Source of the DNA: Oceaniferula marina
Lineage (GTDB): Bacteria > Verrucomicrobiota > Verrucomicrobiia > Verrucomicrobiales > Akkermansiaceae
NCBI RefSeq assembly: GCF_013391475.1
Contig: NZ_JACBAZ010000008.1
Span: 186,001 to 250,000 of the forward strand
Direction of reading: 5' to 3'
DNA: 64,000 nucleotides
Under the pieces are notes generated by a model. That model ran no database searches and had not been told where the DNA came from. It saw nothing but the letters and a program-made list of their open reading frames with translations. Position numbers and translations under genes: made by a program. Below, piece after piece: positions 5,135 through 43,826 of the stretch. How positions within the stretch are numbered: the first letter of the stretch is position 1; every line of letters starts with the position of its first letter.

Positions 5135-5230
5135 CCATAACAATGTGAAGCCCCTGTAAAACACTGCATTTTTTTGAATTTTACGCTTACTCCCGAGCCA
5201 GAAGCAGTCTATAAGCCAGTCACTACACCT

Positions 5231-7714
5231 ATGGAAAAGTTAAATATTGCGCATCATAAGCAATGGGGGAGGCAATTGACGAGCTTGGGAATGGCCTGTG
5301 CCATGGGCCTGGTCGTGCCTACTTATACCCCAATCGCCAAGGCTCAGGAGTCCTTGGTCCAAAAAGAATTGCAGCGCCGGGTCAACAATACCCGCAAAGC
5401 CCAGGAGCTTCTCCATCAAGGTGATACTGCCTACAACAGCAAAGACTACGCCAAGGCGGTGCAACACTACTCGCAGGCATTCGCTCTACTGCCCATTGGG
5501 TCGATCACCCAGGAAATCCACGCAGCCGCGGCAGATCGATACGCAACGGCAGCCACTGAGCGCAGCCGGGCACTTGCCAAGGGCGGCGACTACGAGAGCG
5601 CCAAGCAATTACTCGATCAGGTTCTCGCCCCCACCGTGGCCCCAGCCCACCTCGGAGCCATCAAATTACGCAAACAGATCGACGACCCGATCCGTTACAA
5701 CCACACCCTGACGCCGGAACACGTTCAGGATGTTCAAAAAGTAGGTCTCTCGCTCAGGGAAGCCGAAGGTTACTACAACCTTGGCCAGTATGACCGGGCC
5801 TTGGCCATGTACCGCAATGTCTTGCGTATCGACCCCTTTAACAAAGCAGCCAGACGCGGCATGGAAAAAGTGGAAGCCACGAAATCCGATTACTATCGCG
5901 CGGCTTACGACCACACCCGCTCCGTCATGCTCGGCGAAGTGGATGCCAACTGGGAGCTTCCTGTTCCTGCTGAAGTCATCATCCCGAGCGCCCTGGGCCT
6001 TGATGCCGATCCCGCTGGCAGAGTCGGCATCAGCTTACGCGAAAAACTGGCAGGCATCACGGTGGAAGTCATTGATCTGGATAATGCATCCATCGACGAG
6101 GCTCTGGATTTTGTCCGCGTGCAAAGCCGACTCGGCGATGCCCCATCAATTACCGGAGAAAAAACCGGCATCAACATTGTCCTGAACCTCGGGGAAGATG
6201 GCTCGGAAACAGCCAAAATGGTCCGATCCAGCCGGGTCGATCTCAAAGCTAGGGCTCTTCCACTATCCAAAGTTCTCGACTACATCACCGACCAAACGCA
6301 CACCCAGTGGCGCAGCGACGGTGCAGCCATCCTCATTACCCCCCTCGGTAGCACCGATGAGGCCTTGGTCTCCAGAACCTTCCGGGTGCCCCCAAATTTC
6401 CTCACATCAGCCAGCACAAAACAAGAGGAAGACTCCACAAGCATCTTCGATAGTGAACCAAGCAGCTCAAGCGGACTTACCCCGAAAAATGTCAACATCG
6501 TAGAATTCCTTCAGAAGAGCGGCATCAGCTTCCCCGACGGAGCCAGCGCCAACTACAGCGCAAGCAGCAACAGCCTGGTTGTGCGCAATACGCCGTCGAA
6601 TCTCGACATCGTGGATCAACTCGTCTCCAACCTGACCGATGAAGAACCCGTTCAGGTCATCGTGCGCACCACCATCATGCGTATTTCGGAGAAACAACTC
6701 AAAGCCTTGAATTTTGACTGGCTGATTACTCCGATTGATCTCACCAGCCATCTCTTTCTCGGAGGTGGCACCGTGGGCAACGGCACCCCATTGGCCGACA
6801 TGCCACTCTCACCATTCTCCGGATTTGGCAGTCCGATCACCTCTGGAACCCGAAGCGGAGACACAGGTCTGGACAGCGACTCGATCGAGGGCCTGATCCG
6901 GGCTGGCAGCACCTCAGCCTTTACGGGTTCTGATGTCCGCGCTCCCGGCATCCTGACCCTGACCGGGGTCTACAGTGGCGTCCAAGTCCAAATGATGATG
7001 CGCGGTCTCGATCAAAAAACAGGCGCCGACGTCATGCAAAAGCCGGCGACCATCGCCCGAAGTGGTGAGCGGTCAAAAATCGAAGTCATTCGCGAGTTCA
7101 TTTACCCCACGGAATATGAACCACCTGAGCTACCCAACACTGTTGGTGGAGGCGACGCGGTTCTGGATCTCACCACCGGAACCATCGGAGTATCTAACCC
7201 GGCAACTCCAATCACACCGGCACACCCGACAGCTTTTGAAACACGCAACGTCGGGGTCACCTTGGAAGTAGAACCCACGGTTGGACCGAACAAAAAATTC
7301 ATCGAGCTATCACTCCGCCCTGAGCTGGTTGAGTTCGAAGGTTTCGTCAACTATGGATCTCCGATCAGTGGATCAGCAGGATCGACAACCTTGATCGACA
7401 TCAATAACATGGTTTCGAATAGTGGCGGCCAGTTTGGTGTCCTAACTGAAAACCGTATCTTGATGCCCGTGTTCAAGGCAACCCGCCTCAAGGACCAGAA
7501 TGTCACCATCCAGGATGGGGCCACGGTGGTCCTGGGTGGCGTAATGACCAGCCGAAAAACCAAAATCGAAGACAAGGTTCCCTTATTGGGAGACATCCCC
7601 TTTGCCGGTCGCCTGTTCCGCTCTGATGCAGAGCAGTCATTCAATGAAGCGGTGATCATCACCGTCCAGGCTGAGTTAATTGACCCAAGCGGCCAGATCT
7701 GGAGAAATCGCTAA
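5231..7714 (+). CDS. TPR-containing outer-membrane secretin of the Amuc_1098 (type IV pilus) family
   Basis: A 827-residue secreted secretin, the ring-forming outer-membrane channel of type IV pilus or type II secretion systems. From the ATG at 5231 it opens with a signal peptide ending near AKAQE (about residue 38). TPR repeats follow at about residues 40-250, including a block (EGYYNLGQYDRAL... to ...WELP, residues 179-244) also found in the alpha-2-macroglobulin-like protein at 30052. Secretin N-domains follow at about 275-470. The C-terminal secretin core has the hallmark GATVVLGGVMTSRK and DKVPLLGDIPFAGRLF near residues 760-800. A TTG at 5174 would add 19 residues with no signal-like character, so I reject it. 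No pilM/N/O-like genes adjoin it, so it looks like a stand-alone copy. Family assignment is strong; the exact machine it serves is inferred. Confidence 0.88.
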   Translation: MEKLNIAHHKQWGRQLTSLGMACAMGLVVPTYTPIAKAQESLVQKELQRRVNNTRKAQELLHQGDTAYNSKDYAKAVQHYSQAFALLPIGSITQEIHAAAADRYATAATERSRALAKGGDYESAKQLLDQVLAPTVAPAHLGAIKLRKQIDDPIRYNHTLTPEHVQDVQKVGLSLREAEGYYNLGQYDRALAMYRNVLRIDPFNKAARRGMEKVEATKSDYYRAAYDHTRSVMLGEVDANWELPVPAEVIIPSALGLDADPAGRVGISLREKLAGITVEVIDLDNASIDEALDFVRVQSRLGDAPSITGEKTGINIVLNLGEDGSETAKMVRSSRVDLKARALPLSKVLDYITDQTHTQWRSDGAAILITPLGSTDEALVSRTFRVPPNFLTSASTKQEEDSTSIFDSEPSSSSGLTPKNVNIVEFLQKSGISFPDGASANYSASSNSLVVRNTPSNLDIVDQLVSNLTDEEPVQVIVRTTIMRISEKQLKALNFDWLITPIDLTSHLFLGGGTVGNGTPLADMPLSPFSGFGSPITSGTRSGDTGLDSDSIEGLIRAGSTSAFTGSDVRAPGILTLTGVYSGVQVQMMMRGLDQKTGADVMQKPATIARSGERSKIEVIREFIYPTEYEPPELPNTVGGGDAVLDLTTGTIGVSNPATPITPAHPTAFETRNVGVTLEVEPTVGPNKKFIELSLRPELVEFEGFVNYGSPISGSAGSTTLIDINNMVSNSGGQFGVLTENRILMPVFKATRLKDQNVTIQDGATVVLGGVMTSRKTKIEDKVPLLGDIPFAGRLFRSDAEQSFNEAVIITVQAELIDPSGQIWRNR

Positions 7715-11516: not shown

Positions 11517-11548
11517 GCCCGAGTTTTCCCATCACCCTTACTCTATCC

Positions 11549-12484: not shown

Positions 12485-12487
12485 GTC

Positions 12488-13873
12488 GTGAGCCAGAGCC
12501 AACCATCGCCCCGGCTTCAGCGAATTCTCTACCGTATTTATCACCAGAATTCGGCGGTCGCCCACTTTCTGATGCATCGCTTCCGGCCAGGGGGCATTCT
12601 GTTGGTTCTCTTAATTCCGGCCTCGCTGCTACTCCTCCCGCAGTATTCCCTTGCCCCCTTGTTCCAAATCAGGGCCAGCCTCTTTGCCTTACTTGGCTTC
12701 AGCGCTTTCTGGGCTTTGATTCGGCGAGCCAAGCTCAAGGCCACACGCCATCTGCCTAAACACGCAACGGCACAACAAGAACTCCGGTACCGTGTCGACC
12801 TTGAAAATACCGGAGCGCTCTCACTCACAGGCTCATCGGTTCTGGAAATACCTCCAGACAACCGGCCATCCTTTGACCTCTTCGCCCACTCCCGTGAACC
12901 AGGGGAGCAAAAACGGAACCTCTTCGATCGTTTTTTTTGTTATTATCGTTGGGAATGGCTGCAACGCACACTGACCCGGTTCCGCAGCGAGAGTTCACCA
13001 CCTCTGCAAACACTGGCTCCGGGGGCTCACACCAGCACCACCCTCACACTTACACCCAAACAACGCGGCGTCATCTCTCTCAACGATTTGCGTGTCACCC
13101 TGCCCGACCCCTTGGGCTTATTCCAACAGGTTCGAAAAATCCATACCAACAACGATCAACTGATCGTCCTACCGAAACGCTACCGCTTACCCCAATTCAG
13201 CCTACCCGGAAGTGCCCGCTTCCAAATTGGAGGAGAAACAGCCTCCAGCGCCGTCGGCCAATCAGGGGATTTCACCAGCGTCAGGGACTACCGCCCGGGG
13301 GACCCTCTGCGCCACATCCACTGGAAGAGCTGGGCAAAAACAGGACACCCTATCGTCAAAGAATACGAGGAAGTTTTCTTTCCTCGCTACGGACTCGTGT
13401 TAGACACCTTTGTCCCCGCTGAAGATGCTGATATCTTTGAAGAATCCGTCTCGGTAGCAGCCTCCTTTGCCGCAACCATTGACACTCGGGAATCTCTACT
13501 CGACTTGATGTTTATCCGGGATGAAGCCCATGTCTTCAGCGCCGGAAGGGGCGAGGAACGCATCGACAAAATGCTGGAAGTTCTGGCAGGCGTCAGCTGC
13601 GAGCCCAGAGAAGACTTCATCGAACTACAAAAACTCATCCTCAGATACCGTGAAGACCTCACAGCGTGCATCTGCATCTTCACTGGTTGGTCAGAGGCCA
13701 GGAACACCATGCTGAAACGCCTGCTACAAGCAAGCATCTCCTTGAAGGTCATCTGCATCTGCAAAGATGAAGAAAGTATACGCCAGGCCAAACAATCCTC
13801 ACCTCCCGTCACGCCAGTCCACTGGCTGAGAAGTCAACACATCCAGCAAGATCTGATCTCACCCGCGACCTAA
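12488..13873 (+). CDS. DUF58 domain protein, MoxR partner
   Basis: 461 residues with a GTG start chosen because it is 3 bases after the moxR stop and no better start lies inside. Two hydrophobic segments at about residues 33-75 anchor it in the membrane. The DUF58 signature is clear around residues 258-290: SGDFTSVRDYRPGDPLRHIHW followed by KSWAKTGHPIVKEYE. The region after it has a von Willebrand A-like layout (GLVLDTFVPAE), though a full MIDAS cannot be confirmed by eye. DUF58 proteins couple MoxR ATPases to exported partners. The next gene starts 18 bases downstream. Confidence 0.92.
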   Translation: MSQSQPSPRLQRILYRIYHQNSAVAHFLMHRFRPGGILLVLLIPASLLLLPQYSLAPLFQIRASLFALLGFSAFWALIRRAKLKATRHLPKHATAQQELRYRVDLENTGALSLTGSSVLEIPPDNRPSFDLFAHSREPGEQKRNLFDRFFCYYRWEWLQRTLTRFRSESSPPLQTLAPGAHTSTTLTLTPKQRGVISLNDLRVTLPDPLGLFQQVRKIHTNNDQLIVLPKRYRLPQFSLPGSARFQIGGETASSAVGQSGDFTSVRDYRPGDPLRHIHWKSWAKTGHPIVKEYEEVFFPRYGLVLDTFVPAEDADIFEESVSVAASFAATIDTRESLLDLMFIRDEAHVFSAGRGEERIDKMLEVLAGVSCEPREDFIELQKLILRYREDLTACICIFTGWSEARNTMLKRLLQASISLKVICICKDEESIRQAKQSSPPVTPVHWLRSQHIQQDLISPAT

Positions 13874-13891
13874 CAACTTAATCATCCGACT

Positions 13892-20518: not shown

Positions 20519-20551
20519 TGTGTTGAATATGATGCCATTTGTTGGATCCAT

Positions 20552-20575
20552 CAAATGATATATACAAATGATATA
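20552..20575 (-). promoter_or_regulatory. Tandem 11-bp direct repeats upstream of the cassette A-type gene
   Basis: CAAATGATATA occurs at 20552-20562 and 20565-20575, 13 bases apart, in a very AT-rich stretch (TATATATATA close by at about 20581-20590) just upstream of the start at 20518. The position and spacing suit a regulator site overlapping or close to the promoter; no regulator is identified. Confidence 0.35.
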
Positions 20576-20723
20576 CGTTTTATATATATACACAACGGCC
20601 ACTTGGTCACCCCCTATTGAGAGGACTTGTTACCAAACCACTTAAACTAACCAAGCATCTCGGCCATTGCACCTTCCCCCACTCAAGAAAGGGGATCAGA
20701 CACGGTCAAAAAGAGGATCGCTT

Positions 20724-29154: not shown

Positions 29155-29961
29155 ATGACACAGGACAAGACCAAAGCCCCTCAGATCCCCAGAGAAGACG
29201 ACATCTGTGATGTCATTGGCAAGGCCATGCGCGGTCAGGGACTTACGCCGGCATCTCTGGCACAACAGGCATCCTTGCCTGAGCCCGCTGTCTCCCGTGC
29301 CCTGCAAGCCGATGGCCCGGCACTGCCCGTCCACGAGCTCAACGCCATTGCCTCAGCCCTCGGGCTCAACCCCAAGGCTCTGGCCCAGCTCAATACCTAC
29401 CTCCCGGGCTGCCAAGCACCAGCCGGACTGATTACGATCACAACCCGCTTCGGCCACGCCGGCGTCAACGCCTTCATTCTGGAAAATGAGCACTCCGCTT
29501 GGGTCTTCGACACCGGAACCGACCCATCGCCCATCCTCTCCCACCTTAGCACACACCGACTGGAGCTAAAAAACCTCTACATCACACACGGGCATCACGA
29601 CCACATCTCCGGGCTGCCCTCGTTTCCAGAAGATCAAACCATCCTGCCAGAGAACATCCGTCACGGAGAGTCCCGTGCACTGACACCGAACATCCGACTC
29701 ACCGCACTGGAAACCAGCGGCCATTTTACGCCCTCCCGGGCCTACTTCATTGAAGGGCTCTCCGCACCGGTTTGTATTTGTGGTGACATCCTCTTTGCCG
29801 GATCGATGGGAAAAGCATCCGGGCTCAGCAGCTATCAACAGTCGCTACGGCATGCGCGTGAAAACCTCCTCAGCCTGCCCCCCGAAACTCTCCTCTGCCC
29901 GGGGCACGGCCCCCTGAGCACCATCGCTCTGGAAAAACAACACAACCCCTTCCTCGCTTAA
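29155..29961 (+). CDS. Fusion of an N-terminal helix-turn-helix domain with a metallo-beta-lactamase-fold hydrolase
   Basis: 268 residues. Residues 15-80 form an Xre-like helix-turn-helix (LTPASLAQQASLPEPAVSRALQ and ELNAIASALGLNP). Residues 92-268 are a glyoxalase-II-type metallo-beta-lactamase fold with THGHHDHISG (H145, H147, D149, H150), a later histidine in TSGHFTP, a bridging Asp in CGDILFAGSMG, and the C-terminal His in LCPGHGPLS. The metal set for a dinuclear hydrolase is therefore present. One polypeptide can both bind DNA and hydrolyse or sense a small molecule, which would make it a metabolite-gated regulator. The paired inverted repeat upstream supports self- and Nudix-gene regulation. 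Substrate unknown. Confidence 0.85.
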   Translation: MTQDKTKAPQIPREDDICDVIGKAMRGQGLTPASLAQQASLPEPAVSRALQADGPALPVHELNAIASALGLNPKALAQLNTYLPGCQAPAGLITITTRFGHAGVNAFILENEHSAWVFDTGTDPSPILSHLSTHRLELKNLYITHGHHDHISGLPSFPEDQTILPENIRHGESRALTPNIRLTALETSGHFTPSRAYFIEGLSAPVCICGDILFAGSMGKASGLSSYQQSLRHARENLLSLPPETLLCPGHGPLSTIALEKQHNPFLA

Positions 29962-30051: not shown

Positions 30052-33000
30052 ATGAAAAGTTTCATCGCCTTCGCCGTCCTCCTTTTCACCTTCGCTCCCA
30101 TTCCGTGCGTCCATGCTGAAACCGACGCCAGAAAAGCGGCCAACGCCCTGCAGGACAACAACTACGCCCTCGCAGGAAAAATCCTCAGCGGCAATCTGGA
30201 AACCCTGGCTGCAGCGGACAAGCAGTTCACCCAGGATCAACTCCTGCACCTGAAGGCAACCACCGAATTCCTTCAAAAAAATTACGAAGCAGCGGAACAA
30301 TCCTGCCAGCAGCTCCAAAAGCAATTTCCAAAGAGCACATGGTTATCCAAGTCCATCTTCCTTGAAGCGGAAACCTATAGCGCTCGCAAACAGTATGAAA
30401 AAGCCATTGGCATCTACGAAAGCCAAGCCATCAAACTCTTCGCGACCGAACGTAAGGCTGGCATCGCCCGATCATTGATCCGCTTTGCCGAGTCGTTCAC
30501 CCGCAAACCCGCGGCTGACAACCTCGATGCCCCCGCACCGGATTACGCCAAAGCCTACAACCTCTACAGCGAAATCCTCGACCTCAACTGCGGCCACACA
30601 CTACGAGCCGAAGCCCGCTACCAAATGACCAGCATGCTCTCGCTGGCAGGTAACTATCAGGGAGCAGAAAAAGAAGCCCTCGCCTACCTCGCAGAGTTTG
30701 ACCCGTCATGGAGAGGTTTGATCGGAAGCCCTGAACGGGTGACCATGAAAAAAAATGCCAACACCCTGGCGACGGGCAAACACATCGCCATGGTTCGTTA
30801 CCTTCATGCCGAGGCACTGCACCGACAAAACCGACGACCCGAAGCCGATAACTATCTCTTCGAACTCCTCCAGCTGGTTGAAGAAAAACACATCGATGCG
30901 GATCAAGCATTACTCGCCGACGCCAGCTGGCTGCGTATTCACACCCTGCGCCAAAAAGGAGGCAAAGCATACGACATCAACGAATGGAAACAAACCACCG
31001 AAGCCTACCTCCAAGCCTACCCCAAACACATCCACGCAAACAAAACGGCCTTCCTTTTAGGCTCCATGCTGCAATCCCACGGCAAAAACAAACTGGCCAT
31101 CACCGCCTATCAAAATTACATCGCTGATAAATACAAGACCGCCGTCACCCCCACGCCGCTCAGTCAGTCAGTGGAAACCGCCGGAGAGCTGGAGGTTCGA
31201 AAAAAATTAGCAGGACAACACCTTGAGTTGGCCCATTACGCACTCGGCTCCATCCACCTCGCGATGGAAGAATTCGAACTCGCCCGTAAAGCCTGGAACC
31301 TGACAGCTCAAACGTTCCCCAATGGAACCCAATGGGCCGCATGCCAGAAAGGCCTCGTCGAAATCGACTACGCCCAGCTGCAAAGCCAGCTGGCAATCCT
31401 GAAAAAAGAAGCTGGGGCAGCCAATGAGGTGGACTGCCACACCCAGGCGACCAAACGAGTCGAAGCCTTCATCAGCCAATATCCTCTCGACCCGAGGATT
31501 GCGGGGCTCCTGTTCTCCTGCGGCCAGATTCCATACGAACTGGCTATTCGGATCGACAAGGAGTCCCCGGAACCAGCAAACAAAAAAATCCGACAGGACA
31601 CACTCTATCAGCAGGCCATCTCGTCTTGGAATATCTTGACCAGTAAATACGGAAAATCCAATGAAGCCTCCCGCGCAAAATTTCTGACGGCCAAACTCTG
31701 GGAAGAACACTTCATCGATATGGAAAAGGCGATCAGCCTCTACAAAAGCTCCAAAGCCAAAGACTTCCGCACCCGTCTGGCCGCCCTCACCAGCAAACGA
31801 TTGTTAGCCAGCGCTGAAAAAACGTTCACCCTGAAAGAAACACCTCAAATCATCCTCAATACAAGGAACATCGAGAAGGTCAAAGTCCATCAGTACTGGA
31901 TCGACCTCAAAGCCTACTTCCTCAAAAATGGCCACCTGGCAGATCTTACCAAACTGGATATCGACCTCATCGAACCCGATCATTCATGGGACGTCTCCAT
32001 CAAAGACTATCAAAAACATCATCCGCTCACCCAGAAAATAGATATCCCCTTCCCCAAAAATAAACCCGGCGTCTGCATCATCAAAATTGAAGACGAAGAC
32101 TACCACACAACCAGCCTGGTTATGCGTAGCAATATTGATATTGCCGTCCGCGTTGGCACCCGGGAGCTTATCGCTTACGCCACCAACTGGGTCAGCGGAA
32201 AACCGGCGTCCAAGGTAAAACTCTTGTTCGCCAGCGGTGAAAAAATCATCGGGACAGAGCTCACCGGTCCCGACGGCGTTTGTTATAAAACATTCGATGC
32301 CCTCGAAGATCTCAGTTCATTGCGAGTGCTGGCCATTTCCCCAGAAGGGGCGGCCACATGCTCTCAGGACCTCGACAGCACCTCCTCTCCGGCTAAACTC
32401 ACCGCCAAGGCGTGGTTCCATACGGCCAGCAGTGAAAACCGCCCCGGAGAAACCGTGCACCTCTCCGGCATTGTCCGGGACGCACTCAACGGTTCCTACA
32501 CCCTGCCTAAAAACAAGAAATACACCCTCAACTGCAGAACCAACCACCACTTGCCCATTTTTGAATCCTCGCTTGATTTAAACCCGCAAGGTGGTTTTGA
32601 AGCCCAATTTAAAATCCCACGACACACGCAAAGTAAAGCCGTCATCGTCACATTAACCCCCGAAAGTCCCGACGAAGCCAAGCAATCGTCCACACCCAGC
32701 CCCGAACGTTTCCAGTACCTCATCCCGATCACCCGACAGTCGGACAGTCAAGCCTCCCTGACCCTCACCTTTGACCAATCTCACCTCAAAACGGGTGATA
32801 TCCTGACTGGCTCTCTCCGTGCCCGTTATCACTGGGACGCTCCCGTCAGCGACCGACGGATCCGTCTCACTTTACCATCAGGAAAACACAGCGATGTTGT
32901 CACCGATGCCCAAGGCCTCGCCACATTCAGCTACGACACCACAGGCATCGCATCCGGTTCATCACTCGTCTTTTCTGCGCAACTCATCGGCATCTCCAGC

Positions 33001-36000
33001 ATGGGAGCAGCCAACGCCATCACAATTGACCCGCTGCAGCTCTACATCCGGGCTGAATCAGACAAAGCCATGGTCACCAGCCAGGAGCCGATCACCATCA
33101 AGGTCAACACCCACAATGCTTCCGAACAACCGGTAGGAGCCACACTCGCACTCAAACTCCTGCGAAGCACTGAAGGCAACAAGGAGAAACTCGTTCAGGA
33201 ACTCCCAATCACCACCGACCCCCAATCAGGAAAAGGTAAAACCGAAATCAAGATTGCCGCTCAAGGTCGCTACATTCTCCGCATCGAAGGCTCTGACCCT
33301 CAGGGAAAACCCAGCCTGACAGAAACGATCATCCACGTGTTAGGTGATGATGCTGCATCTGAAATCACCGCCTACCACCATACCCAAAAGCTCTTCGATG
33401 ACAGCCAATTCGAGTTGCGGGTCTTTTCCAAACGCCATACCGCTTGTCAAGCCCTGCTCACAGTTGAGGCCCAACACATCATTGAACATCAAATCGTCGA
33501 GCTAAAACCGGGAGCCAACCTTTTCAAGCTGGATCTCAGCCCGCAGCACGCCCCGATATTCAGGACCTCCTTGATGGTCATGCACGACCGATCATTCTTT
33601 TCCGCGGAGGACGTGGTTACGGTGAGCCGCCGGCTATTCGTCCAAACCATACTACCGGAAAAGGCGTCCTTCTCACCCGGAGAAACCATCACAGCCCAGG
33701 TCAACGTGAGTGACACCCAAGGCAAACCCGTCCCGGCTCTGTTGATGGCATCCATTGAAAAGCAGCGCCACGAAACTCAGGCCAAATCACCCGAGGGCGG
33801 CTGGTTCATCTACACCCCGTTCCAACGCTCCTCAGAGCTTCCCCAATATTCAATGGGCACCAGCTGCGGGTTCACCCACACCGGAACCCAGCAACGAATC
33901 CTCGCTGCCTATAAAGAAGAACAACAACGCATCGCCGACGGCAACAACCGAGCTCACAGAGTCACCGACCTCAGCCGTCTCGCCCAACAACACTTCCAGA
34001 GTATCGACAACATCCGTAAGCATCTCTACATGGGTGAAGGATACTACAACCTAGGCAAATACGATGAAGCAGATGAAGCATTCCGTAACGTCCTACGTGA
34101 AGATCCGTATAACAAAGATGCCCGCCGCTGGATGGAAAAAGTCGCCAGCATCAAATCGGATTACTACCGCTCCGCATACGACCAAACCCGAGCTGAGAGC
34201 CTTCAACAGGTTGATCAGGCATGGGAACTCCCCAATCAAGTTGACATCCAGGCAGGCAACCGCGCAACCGCAGGTCTTCGCTCAGGAGACTACGCCGTGA
34301 CCCGGAATTCCATCGATGCCATTCTCAACAACCCAAACCGCACACAATCACTCCAACGCAATAGTATCGATTTTTATCTCAACAACCCACAACGAACCTC
34401 GACAGCAGATGCCAATGCCATCGCTCTGGCGAGGTCCCGGAATGGGTTTGCCGTCAACCCCAACCGGATCAACCAACCCGTGTTCCGCTCCCAAGGAGCT
34501 CAAAGCGGGTTCGTCGGAGGAGGCCGTATCGGAAATGGCGAGGCCCGCAACGGGGTCGACTTCATCAGCCCGGTCAATTTCACCAACATCCCCGGAATCC
34601 CGGCAAATCAGGGGGGGGCGAGGCTCAATCAAATCCCCGAGCTTCCCAATGCCGTAGGAACCAGCCCCATGGCATTAACAGGCCTCTTCAATGGCACATG
34701 GAACACCACCGAACACACAGCCGCACCCAACTGGTCCGCCCCCATCCAACTACTGGCCCAAGGAAGCTCGACGCTGAAAATCCCCCTCCCCGATCGTGCT
34801 GGAACATGGACGCTCCATGTCCTCGCTGCAGCAAAAAATGGAACCTTGGGGGTCGATCGACAGACCATCAAAACCTCTGAACCGGTCAGCCTGCGCTTTG
34901 CTTCCATCCCACAGGTCATGGGCGGTGACAAATGGATCCCCGAACTCTCACTGTTCCGCCACGGCGCCCTGCCCGCGACCAACGGCCAAGTAAAAATCAG
35001 CGTCAACCATAACGGCAAGCCTCTGGCTACTCACACCGAGGAACTCACCATCGACAAAGATGCCGACTCAGCCACCGTCCCGACAAAAAAGATCACGGTC
35101 CCAGCATCCGGCACCCTGACGCTACTCGCAGAGCTCACGCTGGAGGGCGCCGCATACCAAACCGAGATCAAGGTTCCGATCCGCCCATACGGAGCCCCGG
35201 TCGCAAATCGGCACAGCCAGACATTGAGCGCCGGAACAAGCAGCTTCGATATCGCTCTGCAAGATCAGGCAACCCCACACCACCTGACTCTGACACTCAG
35301 AAAAGACATCAACCAGTCACTCTATCAGCTCTCCACCTCGAAGCTTGAGCCCGTCTTTGGCTGGAACGTCCCGTGCCGGCAAGCCCACCCGGCGGGTCAA
35401 TTCAACGCCCAGGTCGCGGTGCTGGAGTATTTGACCAAACAAAAGGCCACCTCCAGCCCACACTACCAGCAACTACTACAACGGGCAAAATGGACACTCA
35501 ATGAGCTGCTCGCACTTCAGCGGGCAGATGGATCATGGACTTCGACACATGGCCGCAAACAAAGCAACCTGATCGTGACCGCCACAGCCTACGAAGCCAT
35601 CCATCGCTGGAAGGCCATGGGTTTCAGCAAGGAACTTGCGACACAAACAACCGAATCCTGGCTCAAAACCCAGGCAAAAAAAATCCCAGACCCCGAAGTG
35701 GATTCCCGCTGCCTCGTGCAACAAGCGCTTTCCTTTGGCAAAGCATCTGATTTCTCCATCTGCAACCGCCTCTACCGAGACCGAGGCACCCTGGGAGACG
35801 CTGGAAAGGTGCTCCTCGCCCAGGCATTTATCAACCTCGACCGCCCGTCCTTTGCTTCGGACCTCCTCGAAAGCATGCACGATCAAGAGCAATGGGCCAG
35901 CTCGACCGATCCGATCACCCGCCATCCGGCATGGATCGCAGGGCAAGCACTCCGGGCACTCTCCAGCATTTCCAAGATCAATCCCAAACTGAAGGCTCAG

Positions 36001-38502
36001 GCCAAGCAACTCAAACAGCTCACCTGGCAACAAGCCGGAGCCGTGGGATACACCAATGACATCATCCGTGCCGCCGCCGTCTCCGGGCTGGCTGCATCCG
36101 TGAAAGCAACGGACGCCACCAAGGCAACGGTTGAAATCTTCGTCAATGGGAACAAAATCCTTACCCACCACACAGACGACAACACCCCATCCACCCCGAT
36201 CCATATCCCGGGCAAGAAGCTGACACCTGGAAAGAACACGGTCAAAGCCGTGGTCAAGGGAAAGGGCGAACTCTACCTATCAGCCAGCCTGACAGGATTC
36301 CTCGCCGAATTCCCAAAATCCAATAACGACAACTTCGCCATCCTCGAACGGAAATACTACCGTGAAAATCTGAGTTTCCAGGGGCAGCCTATCAAAACCA
36401 CGGGACAGTCACCGGCAAAAGAGGCCGAATTCCAGAACATCGTGCGTGTCGACATCCGTCTGGAAAATCAGAAAAAAGACCAGAAAGATGTCGTCTTGGT
36501 CGAGCAGCTTCCTGCCGGATTCACTTACATTCCGGGCTCTCTTCGTGGTGCCCATAGTGGGGCCCGGTTGGAAAACAACCACTTGGTCGTCACCTTCCGA
36601 GGGACATTCAAACCACGCTGGATCCGCTATGAAATGATTGCAAGCCACACAGGAACGTGGAATCAGACACCCTCGACCTTCATTCCCCTGCAATCCCCCG
36701 GACAAGCGGTGTTCGGTCCGCAAGGGTCACTCACCGTACTTGCCCGAGGCAAGGCATCCACACAACCCTATCAAACCTCTGCGGCCGAGCACGCCGAACT
36801 CGCCAAACTCCATTACAACCATGGAGAACACCAACTGGCGAAACAACACCTCGCAGCACGACGCAAGCTGAAACTTCCATCCACCGAAGATGCTGAAATC
36901 GCACGCATCACACTCTGGTTAGAATCCGCTGAACAAACACCCGATGCCAAGCGACTCGTCGAAGCCTTTGAAACACTCGACGCCAGAATGCCGGACCTCA
37001 GCATTCCCTTCGATAAAATCCTTAAAGTCGGCAAAGCATACCGACAACTCAAAGAGTTCGAACGGGGGCAGTACGTTTTTGCCGCCACGCTCGAAGCTGG
37101 TTTCGCCCAAGACACCTACGTCGGAGCAGCACTCGAAGACCAGGGACGTTTCCTCGACGCCATTGACTACCAGAAAAACATCTGGCAACTCTATCCTGAC
37201 CACGGCGAGATCACCAACACGTGGTTTGCCATGGCTCAGGAACTGAACGAAAGGTCTGGCAACGCCAGAAAAGTCCAAGCCAGAATCGATAGCCCGGCAA
37301 ACAGCAAGGTCAGCGAAGTCGAACTCATCTCCGAATCCCAAAAGATGCTCGACCAATTCCTCTTCCTACACCCCGAACACCCGGCAGCCGATGAAGTCTC
37401 CTACACCATGGCCAACACCCTGTTCGCCTTAAAAGACTACCGCGCCGTCGTCGCCCAGGCTCGACGCTGCCATCAACGGTATCCTGAAAGCAAACACCTC
37501 AGCAGCTTCCGCTACATGGAGGCCCTCGGGTCATTCTGGCTGCGAGACTACGATGTCGCCATCCAAGCCGCCGCTGAAGTGGCCCACGGAACCTCGCAGG
37601 ATAAAAATCTGGCAACCTTCATCACTGCCCAGATTTTCCATGCCAAAGGACAACCCGATAAGGCAATGGAATGGTATGAACCCATCAAGGACCATTACCC
37701 GGACGCACGTGAATCCATCGCTTACTTTGAACAGAAAAAAGTCAAACTCGATGAAGTCAAAGTGCTCTCATCTGGAAAAAAAGCCACCATCACCATGGAC
37801 TACCGCAATATCTCAACCGCTGAGTTGAAAATCTATCGTGTGGACCTCATGAAGCTCTACTTAAAACAAAAAAACCTGTCGAACATCACCAATATTGAAC
37901 TCGCCGGTATTGCTCCGGAACATGAACTCAGTATCAAACTCAACCAGGGCGACATGACAGAGGATATGCAGCAACACATCACGCTCCCCATCCGCAACGA
38001 CGGTGCCTACCTCATCCTCTGCCGTGGAGACTACCTCTATACGTCCGGCCTCGTCTTGATCACCCCCCTAAAAATGGAAGTCCAAGAAGAGCCTGACGCC
38101 GCGAGCTTGCGAGTCCACGTCAGGGATCGCGAATCCGGCAAGCTCCTCGACAACGTCCATGTCAAAGCCATCGGTAGTGACAACTCCCGATTCAAAACCG
38201 GGGAAACCGATCTCCGCGGTATTTGGAAAGCCGAATCCATCCAGGGAAAACCCACCGTGATCGCCCGCGACCCCAAAGGTCGTTATGCGTTCTTCCGTAG
38301 CCAGATTGATTACCAATCCAGCGAAACTGAGCAAAGCAACGATGATGCCTTCGCCGCCCCACAGAAAAAACAAAAAGTCGATTTCAAAGGCAACCTGATC
38401 CAAGGCCAGCTGGAACTCAACAAGAAGAACTACAAAAGCTACAATGAGTTCCGCCGAAGCAAAGGCAAGGGAGTCAAAGTCAACAAAGCCATGAAAAAAT
38501 AA
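30052..38502 (+). CDS. Giant alpha-2-macroglobulin-like envelope protein with TPR arms and an internal TPR insertion
   Basis: 2816 residues with a signal peptide (MKSFIAFAVLLFTFAPIPCVHA). Order: TPR-like helices about 25-580; macroglobulin-like strands about 590-1290 containing an MG2-type segment; then a 66-residue TPR block at 1329-1394 nearly identical in plan to the secretin's. Next is a low-complexity repeat region (RNSIDAILNNP/RNSIDFYLNNP); then the A2M core at about 1540-1630 (PLPDRAGTWTLHVLAAAKNGTLG). A thioester-domain-like alpha-toroid follows at about 1750-2010, and more TPR helices at about 2260-2560. A second macroglobulin-like unit closes the C-terminus (about 2567-2740). Bacterial A2Ms trap proteases in the periplasm. 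The thioester CxEQ is replaced by CRQA (Cys1775), so covalent capture is probably lost. Only a short hypothetical gene follows on this strand; usual partner pbpC is absent. Confidence 0.85.
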   Translation: MKSFIAFAVLLFTFAPIPCVHAETDARKAANALQDNNYALAGKILSGNLETLAAADKQFTQDQLLHLKATTEFLQKNYEAAEQSCQQLQKQFPKSTWLSKSIFLEAETYSARKQYEKAIGIYESQAIKLFATERKAGIARSLIRFAESFTRKPAADNLDAPAPDYAKAYNLYSEILDLNCGHTLRAEARYQMTSMLSLAGNYQGAEKEALAYLAEFDPSWRGLIGSPERVTMKKNANTLATGKHIAMVRYLHAEALHRQNRRPEADNYLFELLQLVEEKHIDADQALLADASWLRIHTLRQKGGKAYDINEWKQTTEAYLQAYPKHIHANKTAFLLGSMLQSHGKNKLAITAYQNYIADKYKTAVTPTPLSQSVETAGELEVRKKLAGQHLELAHYALGSIHLAMEEFELARKAWNLTAQTFPNGTQWAACQKGLVEIDYAQLQSQLAILKKEAGAANEVDCHTQATKRVEAFISQYPLDPRIAGLLFSCGQIPYELAIRIDKESPEPANKKIRQDTLYQQAISSWNILTSKYGKSNEASRAKFLTAKLWEEHFIDMEKAISLYKSSKAKDFRTRLAALTSKRLLASAEKTFTLKETPQIILNTRNIEKVKVHQYWIDLKAYFLKNGHLADLTKLDIDLIEPDHSWDVSIKDYQKHHPLTQKIDIPFPKNKPGVCIIKIEDEDYHTTSLVMRSNIDIAVRVGTRELIAYATNWVSGKPASKVKLLFASGEKIIGTELTGPDGVCYKTFDALEDLSSLRVLAISPEGAATCSQDLDSTSSPAKLTAKAWFHTASSENRPGETVHLSGIVRDALNGSYTLPKNKKYTLNCRTNHHLPIFESSLDLNPQGGFEAQFKIPRHTQSKAVIVTLTPESPDEAKQSSTPSPERFQYLIPITRQSDSQASLTLTFDQSHLKTGDILTGSLRARYHWDAPVSDRRIRLTLPSGKHSDVVTDAQGLATFSYDTTGIASGSSLVFSAQLIGISSMGAANAITIDPLQLYIRAESDKAMVTSQEPITIKVNTHNASEQPVGATLALKLLRSTEGNKEKLVQELPITTDPQSGKGKTEIKIAAQGRYILRIEGSDPQGKPSLTETIIHVLGDDAASEITAYHHTQKLFDDSQFELRVFSKRHTACQALLTVEAQHIIEHQIVELKPGANLFKLDLSPQHAPIFRTSLMVMHDRSFFSAEDVVTVSRRLFVQTILPEKASFSPGETITAQVNVSDTQGKPVPALLMASIEKQRHETQAKSPEGGWFIYTPFQRSSELPQYSMGTSCGFTHTGTQQRILAAYKEEQQRIADGNNRAHRVTDLSRLAQQHFQSIDNIRKHLYMGEGYYNLGKYDEADEAFRNVLREDPYNKDARRWMEKVASIKSDYYRSAYDQTRAESLQQVDQAWELPNQVDIQAGNRATAGLRSGDYAVTRNSIDAILNNPNRTQSLQRNSIDFYLNNPQRTSTADANAIALARSRNGFAVNPNRINQPVFRSQGAQSGFVGGGRIGNGEARNGVDFISPVNFTNIPGIPANQGGARLNQIPELPNAVGTSPMALTGLFNGTWNTTEHTAAPNWSAPIQLLAQGSSTLKIPLPDRAGTWTLHVLAAAKNGTLGVDRQTIKTSEPVSLRFASIPQVMGGDKWIPELSLFRHGALPATNGQVKISVNHNGKPLATHTEELTIDKDADSATVPTKKITVPASGTLTLLAELTLEGAAYQTEIKVPIRPYGAPVANRHSQTLSAGTSSFDIALQDQATPHHLTLTLRKDINQSLYQLSTSKLEPVFGWNVPCRQAHPAGQFNAQVAVLEYLTKQKATSSPHYQQLLQRAKWTLNELLALQRADGSWTSTHGRKQSNLIVTATAYEAIHRWKAMGFSKELATQTTESWLKTQAKKIPDPEVDSRCLVQQALSFGKASDFSICNRLYRDRGTLGDAGKVLLAQAFINLDRPSFASDLLESMHDQEQWASSTDPITRHPAWIAGQALRALSSISKINPKLKAQAKQLKQLTWQQAGAVGYTNDIIRAAAVSGLAASVKATDATKATVEIFVNGNKILTHHTDDNTPSTPIHIPGKKLTPGKNTVKAVVKGKGELYLSASLTGFLAEFPKSNNDNFAILERKYYRENLSFQGQPIKTTGQSPAKEAEFQNIVRVDIRLENQKKDQKDVVLVEQLPAGFTYIPGSLRGAHSGARLENNHLVVTFRGTFKPRWIRYEMIASHTGTWNQTPSTFIPLQSPGQAVFGPQGSLTVLARGKASTQPYQTSAAEHAELAKLHYNHGEHQLAKQHLAARRKLKLPSTEDAEIARITLWLESAEQTPDAKRLVEAFETLDARMPDLSIPFDKILKVGKAYRQLKEFERGQYVFAATLEAGFAQDTYVGAALEDQGRFLDAIDYQKNIWQLYPDHGEITNTWFAMAQELNERSGNARKVQARIDSPANSKVSEVELISESQKMLDQFLFLHPEHPAADEVSYTMANTLFALKDYRAVVAQARRCHQRYPESKHLSSFRYMEALGSFWLRDYDVAIQAAAEVAHGTSQDKNLATFITAQIFHAKGQPDKAMEWYEPIKDHYPDARESIAYFEQKKVKLDEVKVLSSGKKATITMDYRNISTAELKIYRVDLMKLYLKQKNLSNITNIELAGIAPEHELSIKLNQGDMTEDMQQHITLPIRNDGAYLILCRGDYLYTSGLVLITPLKMEVQEEPDAASLRVHVRDRESGKLLDNVHVKAIGSDNSRFKTGETDLRGIWKAESIQGKPTVIARDPKGRYAFFRSQIDYQSSETEQSNDDAFAAPQKKQKVDFKGNLIQGQLELNKKNYKSYNEFRRSKGKGVKVNKAMKK

Positions 38503-39151: not shown

Positions 39152-40366
39152 CTACCCCCCCAACTTGACCTCCAGCCAGGTTTTATCTTTCGGCGTGGTG
39201 ACCGTTTGCCGTTGCATCGCTCCAGACACCTCATCCTTCCACATCAATTGATAGATCTGCCCTTTGCGAACCACGACCGTATAAAAACGATTCATATCGT
39301 CGCTTGGCTTAGGTGAAACGCCCTCGGCAATTTTAAGATCCCCCTGAAGCACCACCACGGGAATCGCAACCCGCTTCCCGCCCACCATCCGGTGAATGCG
39401 CAACTCGCAATCGTTTTCACCTACCGCATTTTCACCACCTAACGCCACATAGCGTTCCGTGACATTCACCGCGGGCACTTCCTTGTTTTTCATATTCCAC
39501 ACCATAGGAAAATGCAGCCCGGTCGACTTCCAAGAGCTTGCATAAATACTGTGGTAAAAACTCTTCGGGTTCGCCTGTGCGGCGTCAGCCAGTAACCAGC
39601 CGTGGTCCAGTCCCTTGGCATCCGGGTAATACTCGGTAAAATGCCAGGCTTTGTCGACCGGGGTCCAGACTTCCACCCAATTGTGATTCCCTCGCTTGGT
39701 GGTCCATGCTGGAATACCTGCCACCCGAGAAGGGATGCCCACCGAGCGAAAGGCATTGTTCAGCAGAATCGACAAGCCACTACAACTCGCCATCCCCTGC
39801 TCCATCGACTCATACGGGCTCTGATCCGGCTTTTTACGCTTGGTGTTGTATTCCACCTTGAGCTCCTTCAAAATGTTCCGATTCACAGCCATCAAAGCCT
39901 CCTCTTGCGTTTTCGCATCCTTCACATACTTGCTGAAGCGTTTATAAAAATCCTGCCGCCAATCGTCACGCCGTTCATTCAAACTGGCATAAGGTAACAC
40001 ATCGTTAAAAAACACGTCCTCAGGAACCTGCTTCGCCCAAGTGAAATTCTCGCGGGCCTTGTATGCCCAGGCCACATTGTTTAACAAATAAGCGGCATTC
40101 AGCGAGCGGGCGTCAGAATCCGGCATGTAAGCGATCAAAAAATGCATCCCCTTGCGCTGCGCCTTTGGCACCTCATCGAGAGCCTTTTCCAGCTCAGCAC
40201 GGTTCTCACCCGCTTGCTCAAGCTTGGCATCCAGCTCTCTACTGTAAGCGGTTTCGACGCGTTCATCAGCAATGAGGGGCATTCCGGGTATCAACACTCC
40301 GACCATCACCGCCACACCAACAGCTGCCCCCGTCCATCTCAATCGCATTGCTCTCATCACCTGCAT
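39152..40366 (-). CDS. Secreted transglutaminase-like domain protein
   Basis: About 404 residues from the ATG at 40366, with a signal peptide (AVGVAVMVGVLIPGMPLIA). A transglutaminase-like core spans about residues 190-290: catalytic Cys in QGMASCSGLSILLNNAFRSVG, His in TKRGNHNWVEVW, and the acidic third residue in FTEYYPDAKGLDHGWLLAD. The arrangement is that of papain-like transglutaminase/peptidase superfamily members. The C-terminal 110 residues form beta strands with GGENAVGENDCELRIH, perhaps an Ig-like or sugar-binding domain. Divergent from the large secreted protein at 40494, with about 127 bases between starts. Substrate unknown; cell-wall peptide or protein cross-link cleavage are both plausible. 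Confidence 0.85.
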   Translation of the reverse strand: MQVMRAMRLRWTGAAVGVAVMVGVLIPGMPLIADERVETAYSRELDAKLEQAGENRAELEKALDEVPKAQRKGMHFLIAYMPDSDARSLNAAYLLNNVAWAYKARENFTWAKQVPEDVFFNDVLPYASLNERRDDWRQDFYKRFSKYVKDAKTQEEALMAVNRNILKELKVEYNTKRKKPDQSPYESMEQGMASCSGLSILLNNAFRSVGIPSRVAGIPAWTTKRGNHNWVEVWTPVDKAWHFTEYYPDAKGLDHGWLLADAAQANPKSFYHSIYASSWKSTGLHFPMVWNMKNKEVPAVNVTERYVALGGENAVGENDCELRIHRMVGGKRVAIPVVVLQGDLKIAEGVSPKPSDDMNRFYTVVVRKGQIYQLMWKDEVSGAMQRQTVTTPKDKTWLEVKLGG

Positions 40367-40493
40367 AGCGACACCCTCCCCCATCTTTGTGCCTCTGCCA
40401 AGCCATCATATGCTACGCAACATACATCAAATCGATCATCCCATAAAAAAAATCAATTTCCATGCTGTGTCCAAGCGTGTTAGTCATTGCAGC

Positions 40494-43400
40494 ATGAAAC
40501 GAAGATTGTTCTCTCCGCTACGCCTTCTCTCCACCACCTTCATGCTGACGGCAACGTCCTTGAATGCCGACACCTACTACAAAGTCGAAATCCAGGATCT
40601 TACCTTGGACAAGGCACAGAAGCTTCCCGAACAAGCGTTGGCTCTCGGCATTTGGGACACCAAAAGACAGCAAGCGGTCTCGGTCCGCATACCGGAATCC
40701 TCCGGTCAGGCATTCACCGCCTTTATCCAAGAGGGAGAACAACAACAACATCGCTGGCACACCCCGGAACAAAAAGAACTACAAATCGCCATCCAGCTTA
40801 AAGAGCCGAAAAAAACAAAAGGCATCATCAACCTCTGGATGAGCAACGATCAACGCCAAAAAAAACTGCAATCATACGCGTTCCAATTCGACCCGTCCAC
40901 GGCCAAACCCTGCAGCAAAGAACAGTTTGAAGCCCTTCGCAGCCAACACTACCAACGCCTCGCAAATGGACACCTCCCGGGAACCGCGTGGTTCAGGCAC
41001 CAAGCAGGCGCCCCTCAAAAAGAAAACGCCAACACCAGACGCAATGCTTCAGACCTCGACGATACCTTTGCCATTTTTTCCGGTGGCCGCGCGATCTCCG
41101 AAAACCTGGCCCTCGACCGCGACCTGATTCTAGCCACCTCAAAAGACAAACCTGATGTCGAAATCAAAACGATCAAAGGGGTCACCGTCAAAGCCATCGA
41201 CTGGACAGACAAACTTCCCTCAGACCCGGTAAGCGTCGACCCCCTCTCCCATTACATCCCCATCGACCAGCACGCTCTCTTTGTGCCATCCATCAACGAC
41301 CTCTTCAAGTTGATCGACCACATCGAACGTGACGGAGCCCCCGTCATTCAGAGCTTCACCGTCCGCAACCCCTTCCGAACCCTGCCATCACGTTACCGAC
41401 GCCAAATGGGGCTCGATGTTCCAGACATGGCGGCAAAACTCCTACCCATTCAATCGGTCGCCGTTACCGGCGGGGATCCCTTTTTCCCGATGGGCAGCGA
41501 TGTCGCCGTTCTGTTTGAATCGGACAAACCGGAACTCCTGTTCCAGTCACTATCGAAAACCATCGAACTCAAAGCAAAACAACATCAAGCCAAAAGCCTG
41601 AAAGCCGTCGACGTTTCTGGCAGCTCCAAGCACCTTGCCTTTGAAAACACCGATCGATCGTTCTCCTGCCACCTCCTGCTCAAAGGCACATTGGTCGCCG
41701 TGGCCAATTCCTCTGAACAAATCAAACGCCTCACCGCAGTGACCCGCGATCGTTCACTCGGAGCCAGTGAAGAGTTCCGCTTTTTCCGTCACCGCTACCC
41801 TATCGCCGCAGACGAGTCCGCCTTCGTCTACCTCTCCGACGCCACTATCCGACGCTGGTGTAGTCCGGAACTTCGCATCGGGGCATCCCGTCGCACACGC
41901 GCCGCAGCCGCCCTAGGTGAACTCAACGCCCGGGCCTTGGCAGAACAACCCATCGGCAAGGATTTTGACGGGCTACTCGGATCCTGCAAGCTTGCTGGAA
42001 GCTCCATCCACAGTGAACACTACGGCAACCTCGGTTTCATCACCCCGGTTTCCGAACTCAAACTCACATCGGCAAGCGCCACCGAAGCCCAAGCCTACGA
42101 ACAATGGCGTCGCGGATACGAGTCCGGCTGGGCCCAGGTCTTCGACCCCATCGCCATTCAGCTGAAACTCAAACCCGACTCCCAAGCTCTGGATATCACG
42201 GTGCTTCCACTGAGTGTGGATAGTGATTACAACGAAATGATCGACCTCGTAGGAGAAGCCAGCCTCTCCCCCAAGGCCCGCTCAGTCCCCGCGGAATCCT
42301 TGCTCTATTTCGCCCTTGCCCTCGATAAAAACAGCGAGCTCTTCGACGAGTTCGATAAAGATCTGGTGGAAATGCTCCCAGGGCTGAAAATCAATCCACT
42401 CTCCTGGGTCGGTAACTCCGTCTCACTTCACCTCGAAGACGGATTTTTCTGGAAAGCTGTTCAGAACACCAAAATGAGCGAAAAACTGATCGGACAGTTA
42501 CCTCTCGCCATCAGGGTCGAATCCACCAGTAAAATGAAACTGGCGTTGTTCCTGACCGCGATCAAGGGCATGATCGGCAGTTCCGCTCCCGATCTCGTCC
42601 GCTATGAGACTCGCAAACATGGAGGCAAATCCTATGTCGCCGTGCTAACCGATGAAGAAGAACTCAATGGCGTCCAAATCTCCCTCTATTATGCAGCCCT
42701 GCCAAGTGCATTCCTCCTATCGCTCGACGAAAACATACTACACCGAGCCATCGACCGAGAAGCTGAAACCATCGCCGAAGGCCCGGCACTCGACGCTCTG
42801 CCTCAGGCCAAACACTGCCTCTTCGAATCTAATCCGAGGTTTCTCACAGGTCTCTCAAAAATCATCGACGATACCGATCTGGAGGAAACCCGGAGAATGG
42901 AAAGCTGGCGCGCCATCCCCATTCTCAACGAATGGCACCGCCGTTTCCCCGGCCAGCAGCCAGCCCTCATCCATCAACAACGTTTTGCATCCGACCTCTA
43001 CTGCCCCGGAGGTAAAGGATACCAATGGAACGCCGAAGCCATGACCATGGAGTCCGTCGCCTACGGCCACCCCGGAGCCCCTCGCAACGATGCCCCGCCA
43101 CTCTCCTGGCTCACCCGCTTCAACAGCCTGCAATCGTCACTCGGATTCGAAGACGGCGGTGTGAGGATCAGGGCCAAACTTTACAATAAACAAGCACCTG
43201 AAAAAAACAAAGCACCAAAGCAAAACAAAGGAGAAGTCCTATCAACCGCCAAGGAGCTCATCAACCTCACTGAGGGTAACACTTGGCTGTATAAAAACAC
43301 AATCCACAACGGTGATGAGATCAGCATAAAAAGCAGTGTGACCAGCTCGACAAACGGAACCGCGACTGTGACTCACGACCAAACTCTACCTGACGGAAGC

Positions 43401-43826
43401 AAACATAAATCAACAAGTAAACATCACATCGATCAAAACGGATTTCATTTACTTGAATATGCTAATCCGGCCCTAAGCCTCAAGCTTACTGAACCTGATC
43501 TGGAGCTTCCACCTACCCTTCACAAGGGAGATGTGATTTCATCGAATGCTAGCGGGAAGCAACACTATGAAGGAAAAATTTTCCCGTTTATTCAGTCATC
43601 CTCGATCAAAATCATTGGCCGGGAATCCATAACAACACCCGCAGGCACCTTCAAAGATTGCATCAAAATTGAAAAATCATCGAATCAACTGTACCTGGGT
43701 AATGTTCAAACCATCCACGCCACCAAGTGGTATTACCCTGGACTCGACTGCATCAAAACGATCTCAAGGGTCAATGGACAAGTCAGCACCACGGAGCTAG
43801 TGAAAATAATCACCCCCGAAAAATAA
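40494..43826 (+). CDS. Large secreted protein with DUF3352-like middle and DUF3108-like C-terminal segment
   Basis: 1110 residues from the ATG at 40494, with a signal peptide (MKRRLFSPLRLLSTTFMLTA). The segment from about residue 270 to 830 alternates helix and strand with SLGASEEFRFFRHRYP and VAVANSSEQIKRLTAVTRD, resembling DUF3352-type bacterial secreted proteins. The final 200 residues switch to short Lys/Thr/Ser-rich strands with TPAGTFKDCIKIE and TKWYYPGLDCIKTI, the pattern of DUF3108/TapB-like domains. That tail is visibly more AT-rich than the body: 22 G/C in bases 43381-43440 against 32 in 42361-42420. This suggests a domain fusion. Divergent from the transglutaminase-like gene. Family labels are by motif style only. 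Confidence 0.65.
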   Translation: MKRRLFSPLRLLSTTFMLTATSLNADTYYKVEIQDLTLDKAQKLPEQALALGIWDTKRQQAVSVRIPESSGQAFTAFIQEGEQQQHRWHTPEQKELQIAIQLKEPKKTKGIINLWMSNDQRQKKLQSYAFQFDPSTAKPCSKEQFEALRSQHYQRLANGHLPGTAWFRHQAGAPQKENANTRRNASDLDDTFAIFSGGRAISENLALDRDLILATSKDKPDVEIKTIKGVTVKAIDWTDKLPSDPVSVDPLSHYIPIDQHALFVPSINDLFKLIDHIERDGAPVIQSFTVRNPFRTLPSRYRRQMGLDVPDMAAKLLPIQSVAVTGGDPFFPMGSDVAVLFESDKPELLFQSLSKTIELKAKQHQAKSLKAVDVSGSSKHLAFENTDRSFSCHLLLKGTLVAVANSSEQIKRLTAVTRDRSLGASEEFRFFRHRYPIAADESAFVYLSDATIRRWCSPELRIGASRRTRAAAALGELNARALAEQPIGKDFDGLLGSCKLAGSSIHSEHYGNLGFITPVSELKLTSASATEAQAYEQWRRGYESGWAQVFDPIAIQLKLKPDSQALDITVLPLSVDSDYNEMIDLVGEASLSPKARSVPAESLLYFALALDKNSELFDEFDKDLVEMLPGLKINPLSWVGNSVSLHLEDGFFWKAVQNTKMSEKLIGQLPLAIRVESTSKMKLALFLTAIKGMIGSSAPDLVRYETRKHGGKSYVAVLTDEEELNGVQISLYYAALPSAFLLSLDENILHRAIDREAETIAEGPALDALPQAKHCLFESNPRFLTGLSKIIDDTDLEETRRMESWRAIPILNEWHRRFPGQQPALIHQQRFASDLYCPGGKGYQWNAEAMTMESVAYGHPGAPRNDAPPLSWLTRFNSLQSSLGFEDGGVRIRAKLYNKQAPEKNKAPKQNKGEVLSTAKELINLTEGNTWLYKNTIHNGDEISIKSSVTSSTNGTATVTHDQTLPDGSKHKSTSKHHIDQNGFHLLEYANPALSLKLTEPDLELPPTLHKGDVISSNASGKQHYEGKIFPFIQSSSIKIIGRESITTPAGTFKDCIKIEKSSNQLYLGNVQTIHATKWYYPGLDCIKTISRVNGQVSTTELVKIITPEK

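Follow-up and report, generated by a model that had tools for sequence, protein, structure and literature searches.

What occupies the bait position of a large alpha-2-macroglobulin (A2M)-like protein of Oceaniferula marina, and where does that sequence come from? The question is raised by a window of 64,000 nucleotides, the whole stretch of DNA analyzed here, in which this protein shares a 66-residue TPR block with a secretin. The features on which the answer depends are listed below; pieces are numbered in A2M residues.

5174..7714, + strand: secretin of the Amuc_1098 family, called type B here (NF042912, E 8e-281), the more distant source
30052..38502, + strand: A2M-like protein of 2816 amino acids, with a signal-like N-terminus (by eye), MG domains, a bait-position insert and an A2M core (Pfam, fold match)
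33898..34728, + strand: bait-position insert, approximately residues 1283-1559 (limits approximate), between two MG-type beta stretches of the structure model
33976..34239, + strand: piece 1, TPR2 segment of an Amuc_1098-type secretin, residues 1309-1396 (129.4 bits; 61/86 identical to the type-A secretin of the same genome)
34036..34233, + strand: the 66-residue block, inside piece 1 (44/66 identical to the window secretin)
34246..34350, + strand: piece 2, RSGD..NSID..LNNP segment, residues 1399-1433, predicted disordered (33.8 bits; 25/31 identical to the type-A secretin of the same genome)
34345..34422, + strand: possible second, degenerate copy of piece 2, RNSIDFYLNNPQRT (-0.1 bits with a mixed secretin profile; alone not significant)
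34495..34617, + strand: piece 3, FVGGGRIGNG..DFISPV..IPGIP segment, residues 1482-1522, predicted disordered (20.0 bits; 20/32 identical)
34633..34665, + strand: possible fourth piece, IPELPNAVGT, like secretin PPELPNSVGT (8/12 identical; too short for significance)

The block had been put forward as a 44-of-66 match, and pairwise alignment of A2M residues 1329-1394 (window 34036-34233) with the window secretin returned exactly that count, ungapped. The corresponding secretin residues are 179-244 if numbered from the ATG start at 5231 and 198-263 in the longest open reading frame (ORF), which begins with TTG at 5174. In a six-frame search of the organism's own genome, the block scored 5.1e-24 against the window secretin and had a better match, 6.5e-31 with 78% identity, in a second secretin encoded on contig C4. 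The next-best TPR reached only 0.002 (43% over 43 residues), so the match is not background TPR similarity. A type-A secretin profile extends the homology beyond the block, to residues 1309-1396, and the NCBIfam model of the Amuc_1098 family, NF042912, matches the whole protein at E 2e-38 and 131.9 bits, with its best stretch at 1310-1397; since the cut-off of this model is 750 bits, the A2M-like protein holds pieces of such a secretin and is not itself a member of the family. The TPR fold proposed for the block agrees with a match to TPR_2 (35 bits for the whole protein against a cut-off of 27, best stretch 1324-1354) and with predicted helices, modeled at pLDDT 82-84 over residues 1340-1359 and at 45-55 just before them.

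The genome thus offers two candidate donors. The type-A secretin on contig C4 has 887 residues and stands in a row with genes of the Amuc_1099, Amuc_1100 and Amuc_1101 families; it is 42% identical to type B, and both score above the NCBIfam Amuc_1098 cut-off. We rejected the window (type-B) secretin as the direct source, as the TPR segment is 78% identical to type A and 67% to type B. The RSGD piece likewise fits type A, with identities of 0.74 in A2M_G000 and 0.86 in A2M_G012 compared with 0.26 and 0.31 to the type-B secretins of the same genomes. The original prediction of copying from secretin to macroglobulin therefore holds for the secretin origin, while the closest source moves from the window secretin to the type-A secretin. 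In the 12 genomes with two secretins that were fetched, one of each pair is nearer type A; assignment of the second to type B is weak where the genomes are distant. One antisense ORF (L080) entered the secretin alignment and was left out of the type-A set. A structure model of the secretin (pLDDT 61, pTM 0.30) left the RSGD and GGG regions without structure. PMC4960237 describes Amuc_1098 as more abundant than any other outer-membrane protein of Akkermansia muciniphila and compares its N-terminal TPRs with pilotins. In the window, positions 5174-16012 carry the type-B secretin followed by two ORFs without a family match, a MoxR-type ATPase, a DUF58 protein and a transglutaminase-like protein.

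The recipient has the MG domains and A2M core that mark the A2M superfamily: Pfam matched MG2 (3e-9) and A2M (5e-5) above the cut-off and MG4 below it, and several TPR models matched toward both ends of the protein. A structure model of residues 1140-1760, built from 17 sequences and of low overall confidence (mean pLDDT 60, pTM 0.39), has in its local numbering strands to 98, helices at 146-252, a mostly unstructured region at 253-420 and strands again from about 433, so that some 165 residues mostly without structure lie between the helices and the second beta stretch. Its fold matches included E. coli and Salmonella A2M, C3, C5 and CD109. Residues 855-1126 of E. coli A2M align to model positions 53-574 (Z 12.0, rmsd 5.8, 200 residues); in the cleaved E. 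coli structure, bait residues 923-942 have no electron density (PMC4498604). Since these residues fall inside the aligned range, the insert takes the bait's place, which is where the block had been predicted to sit. By position in the structure alignment, the protein therefore has what other superfamily members have, a putative bait region within an MG domain. The C-x-E-Q thioester that characterizes Type I A2Ms is absent from all seven proteins compared, this one included, and by that absence the protein can be classed as a type II-like macroglobulin.

The A2M gene is flanked by transglutaminase-like, weakly DUF3108-like and sugar-phosphate genes. At window positions 39152-43826, the transglutaminase-like gene (- strand) overlaps the start of a 1184-amino-acid ORF (+ strand) with a weak DUF3108-like end. 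Directly upstream, at 29155-29961, lies a protein of metallo-beta-lactamase fold whose N-terminus gives weak helix-turn-helix matches. Farther away, at 16814-20602 (- strand), the N-terminus of a 1262-amino-acid protein weakly matches Verru_Chthon cassette protein A (2.6e-6, far below cut-off).

Secretin homology in the insert is not confined to the TPR segment. Against a background in which the top score of the type-A profile among 800 shuffled proteins was 4.0, three pieces stand out at 129.4, 33.8 and 20.0 bits. Piece 2 reads TAGLRSGDYAVTRNSIDAILNNP in the A2M-like protein and TAGLRSGDYATTRNSIDAILNNP in the type-A secretin of the same genome. Piece 3 lies upstream of piece 2 in the secretin, which means that their order is swapped in the insert. 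The degenerate repeat of piece 2 and the IPELPNAVGT stretch are suggestive of additional secretin pieces. When the bait without its TPR core was compared with the own genome, the only matches were the secretin, a VWA protein and one hit at chance level (E 0.13). As a donor control, 52 ORFs of at least 200 amino acids, taken from the window and locus L008 (many of them not genes), were compared with three A2M baits and a VWA linker, and only the two secretins matched at E<0.1. In G000, G012 and G013, the three A2Ms of the genus that carry both, the RSGD piece begins 3 to 18 residues after the copied TPR. A TPR segment and predicted-disordered segments, all from an Amuc_1098-type secretin, make up a collage at the bait position. 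What had been described as one copied module is accordingly right for the TPR segment and wrong in its singularity, given the further pieces at 1399-1433 and 1482-1522.

No described A2M had been known to have this arrangement, yet it is not peculiar to this protein: in relatives, pieces occur in A2Ms, in VWA proteins and in a few others. A related A2M C-terminal half was found at E 1e-60 or better in 33 of 260 genomes of the family. Of these 33, 26 allowed at least partial examination of the bait position: 25 include the sequence preceding the bait, and G241 the sequence following it. Secretin pieces were present in 5 of these 26: TPR and RSGD in G000, G012 and G013, N1 and RSGD in G241, and gate in G243. 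The type-A profile scan detected no secretin piece in the A2Ms of G009, of the same genus, and G034, nor in those of G043 and G037, outside the family. With 21 of the 26 family genomes, G009 included, carrying no piece, the insert is dispensable for the family. A relative of the A2M in a genome of the same genus (G007:C19:535-4335) has two in-frame TAG stops in the matched stretch, and another part matches on a different contig.

Pieces were more frequent in the VWA proteins, occurring in 13 of 20 scanned (i-E < 1e-4); all 20, one of them partial, were matched by the O. marina VWA protein at E 7e-131 or better in 58 relatives. The O. marina protein (L104:2306-5617, - strand) consists of a weakly anti-sigma-like N-terminus (NF052375, E 1e-4, far below cut-off), a linker with secretin pieces, VWA and YfbK_C, and in this genome its gene adjoins an ECF sigma gene. 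Part of the linker (KPSAPSSSMAKVIAAN, DFGDGDDFGDGWGDG type) is common to three other membrane proteins of the genome, at 60-78% identity (L166, L167 and L168; FTPEIVSYQ is also shared, by eye), which makes the VWA protein a mosaic of more than secretin parts. Further carriers comprise more VWA proteins, a DUF2135 protein with TPRs, an alpha/beta hydrolase and two large proteins (G038, G052); having been found through matching, they have no denominator. In G243 (L185:1345-2649 and L187:2-2512), a TPR1 piece is joined to the alpha/beta hydrolase, and the DUF2135 protein with TPRs contains an RSGD piece (15 bits). On contig C3 of G000 (L105:5130-7398, + strand), three small proteins in tandem, whose starts look signal-like by eye, resemble the secretin gate and barrel, with NF042912 matches at E 6e-34, 3e-4 and 4e-19, all below cut-off; a VIT/SLBB protein follows directly, and similar small ORFs match in G144 and G243.

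A single acquisition, inherited without co-evolution, should leave each copy about equally similar to all secretins. Instead, as judged from protein sequence, the copies mostly resemble the secretin of their own genome most. Ranked against 33 or 34 type-A secretins, the own secretin came first for TPR2 in 11 of 13 copies, for TPR1 in 8 of 10 (one case against 34, the rest against 33), for N0/N1 in 6 of 7 and for RSGD in 4 of 6. It came first in just one of six gate copies, a ranking that says little because the gate segment is nearly invariant. Exceptions included A2M_G012 TPR2, for which the own secretin ranks 5th, VWA_G001 (3rd) and A2M_G013 RSGD (7th). GGG rows, a single spurious TPR1 row of A2M_G012 and the two small secretin-like proteins were not part of this main ranking. 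The GGG piece had no own-genome preference (own secretin first in 0 of 2); for piece 3 of the window A2M, the own secretin ranks 4th of 24, and for the small secretin-like proteins 8th of 33. Among the 12 TPR2 copies of at least 60 residues, none of 20,000 label permutations, which ignore kinship among the secretins, reached the observed summed identity, and the own assignment scored best in each of four groups of related genomes (the three A2Ms of the genus and three VWA pairs).

A TPR2 tree, from which type-B secretins were left out, gave a similar picture. It paired the VWA protein with its own secretin in G043 (100), G019 (100), G022 (99) and G014 (98), and grouped A2M_G012 with A2M_G013 (99) next to the G012 and G013 secretins (96), the sister relation itself having only 59. 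Against the own-genome match, VWA_G034 joined the secretin of another genome of its genus, G243 (94), and VWA_G001 paired with the secretin of G007 (73).

The copies do not look recent. Codons agreed at 856 of 2,078 identical residues, compared with 772 expected from codon usage, and the small excess lay, by piece, in TPR1 and TPR2, where it leaves old copying possible. Recent gene conversion or a mobile DNA repeat was considered and is not supported by a codon identity so close to expectation. Up to 95 of 107 residues are identical despite near-saturated synonymous codons, and the RSGD pieces of the G012 A2M and secretin have 29 of 30 residues in common but 11 of 29 codons. The RSGD serine is encoded by TCN in all three genus A2Ms and by AGY in all 12 genus type-A secretins examined, a difference that argues against recent conversion involving this codon; overall, serine codon families were the same in 50 of 79 cases, with 41.4 expected. 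Silent sites near saturation beside a conserved protein indicate that the copies are old, and purifying selection seems to hold their protein sequence. Either copying was repeated and old, or the copies co-evolve with the secretin; the differing pieces and piece orders favor several acquisitions across genera.

The explanation that we consider best, though we hold it tentatively and would not call it probable, is that the insert mimics the cell's own pilus secretin and so lets the protease trap dock onto the secretin or onto its partners, with the disordered pieces serving as bait. On the strength of the pilotin remark about the Amuc_1098 TPRs and of the pilotin TadD, the N-terminal TPRs of the secretin would act as a built-in pilotin. 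A copy of them would let the macroglobulin bind the secretin, or whatever partner handles the secretin, and so station the trap at the outer-membrane channel, where the disordered pieces might be a ligand or a cleavable bait. If each copy has to fit the secretin of its own cell, the species-matched sequences would follow. Such mimicry in the VWA proteins might link a sigma factor to the condition of the secretin. A wider proposal, which we regard as possible but unlikely, is that Akkermansiaceae and their relatives use a species-matched code of self-mimicry, in which pieces of the main pilus secretin, repeatedly copied or co-evolving, sit in protease traps, sigma-linked VWA sensors and other envelope proteins that all recognize, or are recognized like, their own secretin channel.

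The main rival to docking mimicry dispenses with docking: the pieces would copy protease-sensitive stretches of an abundant outer-membrane protein, a protease attacking the secretin would spring the trap, and the VWA proteins would be cleavage sensors that release the sigma factor. The bait position of the pieces, the predicted disorder of two of the three, the abundance reported for Amuc_1098 in A. muciniphila (PMC4960237), and the weakly anti-sigma-like VWA N-terminus (far below the NF052375 cut-off) beside an ECF sigma gene are all in keeping with such a decoy. However, the best conserved piece is a predicted folded TPR, which would make a poor bait, and a bait can absorb change and would have no need to follow the own secretin for 80-100 residues; we think this reading rather unlikely, while taking it seriously. 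We give still less weight to mutational bias with little function, in which segments of a highly expressed gene are occasionally copied, by recombination or from reverse-transcribed mRNA, into linkers that tolerate inserts and are kept for a while. The same abundance in a relative (PMC4960237) would suit it, as would the preponderance of linkers among the recipients, the variation by lineage in the piece present and the many relatives with none. Such copies ought not to be old and under purifying selection, yet this is what near-saturated silent sites with up to 95 of 107 residues identical imply, a finding that makes bias without function less likely. Moreover, the kinds of recipient recur, and the 52 control ORFs yielded no other donor, although the VWA linker shares a stretch with three other membrane proteins.

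A single ancestral acquisition, inherited vertically and changing in step with the secretin without renewed copying, would account for the TCN serine common to the three genus A2Ms opposite AGY in the genus secretins, for the grouping of A2M_G012 with A2M_G013 at 99, and for the G012 piece in which 29 of 30 residues are held in common against 11 of 29 codons. It is hard to reconcile with lineages that differ in pieces and in piece order, and with the TPR2 of the G022 and G034 VWA proteins, which have 46 of 98 residues in common although the cores are 62% identical, pointing to separate acquisitions at least among genera; we judge it quite improbable. Ordinary shuffling of a mobile TPR domain, already disfavored, is the least probable of all. 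TPRs are indeed common, and the A2M has others toward both ends, but shuffling would hardly draw on one secretin type only, take non-TPR (disordered) pieces along and mostly follow the own genome. Of these readings, we therefore continue to prefer docking by mimicry of the own secretin; it leaves the original interpretation partly supported, and the TPR docking face proposed there plausible.

Docking mimicry, if right, would point to the pilus secretin as what a thioester-less bacterial macroglobulin guards, and would suggest a way in which a sigma-linked envelope protein of Verrucomicrobia might sense the condition of the outer membrane. Were the wider code also true, the bait of a macroglobulin would be a portrait of the protein it guards. 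The evolutionary pattern is odd in its own right: segments of one gene lie in several unrelated proteins and mostly match their own donor at the protein level, with silent sites near saturation. Denser sampling would make co-evolution and repeated copying directly testable against each other. Among the matches listed in a search of titles and abstracts, mostly of open-access literature, we found no work joining macroglobulin baits with secretins; nor did the titles and abstracts among those matches describe a species-matched spread of secretin pieces. Macroglobulin, secretin and TPR are each of a known kind, and what appears to be new, judging by the matches listed, is the presence of pieces of the own secretin at the bait position, together with their species-matched spread.

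Among known systems, the Type II A2M MagD of Pseudomonas aeruginosa likewise lacks the C-x-E-Q thioester and is described as still trapping protease after bait cleavage (PMC5764988); in the present protein, by contrast, secretin pieces fill the bait position and TPR matches lie toward the ends. The Type I A2Ms of E. coli (ECAM) and Salmonella are among the best fold matches (4ziq, Z 12.0; 4u48, Z 11.6), and the insert lies at the place of their disordered bait. They differ in having the thioester that is absent here and in scale, the disordered bait of cleaved ECAM measuring 20 residues (PMC4498604) and the insert about 280. The Amuc_1098-family type IV pilus secretin, PilQ of Akkermansia, is the sequence source of the A2M pieces (NF042912), yet the A2M has only segments of it, in altered order, with no N-domains or barrel. 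TPR pilotins such as TadD and PilF resemble the copied segment in their TPRs. A groove that takes up a secretin segment is a feature of TadD, which is reported to hold the C-terminal tip of its secretin, predicted to be unstructured, in that groove (PMC10499894). These pilotins are separate proteins, whereas the TPRs of Amuc_1098 and their A2M copy are built into larger ones, and binding by either is putative, by analogy with the pilotins.
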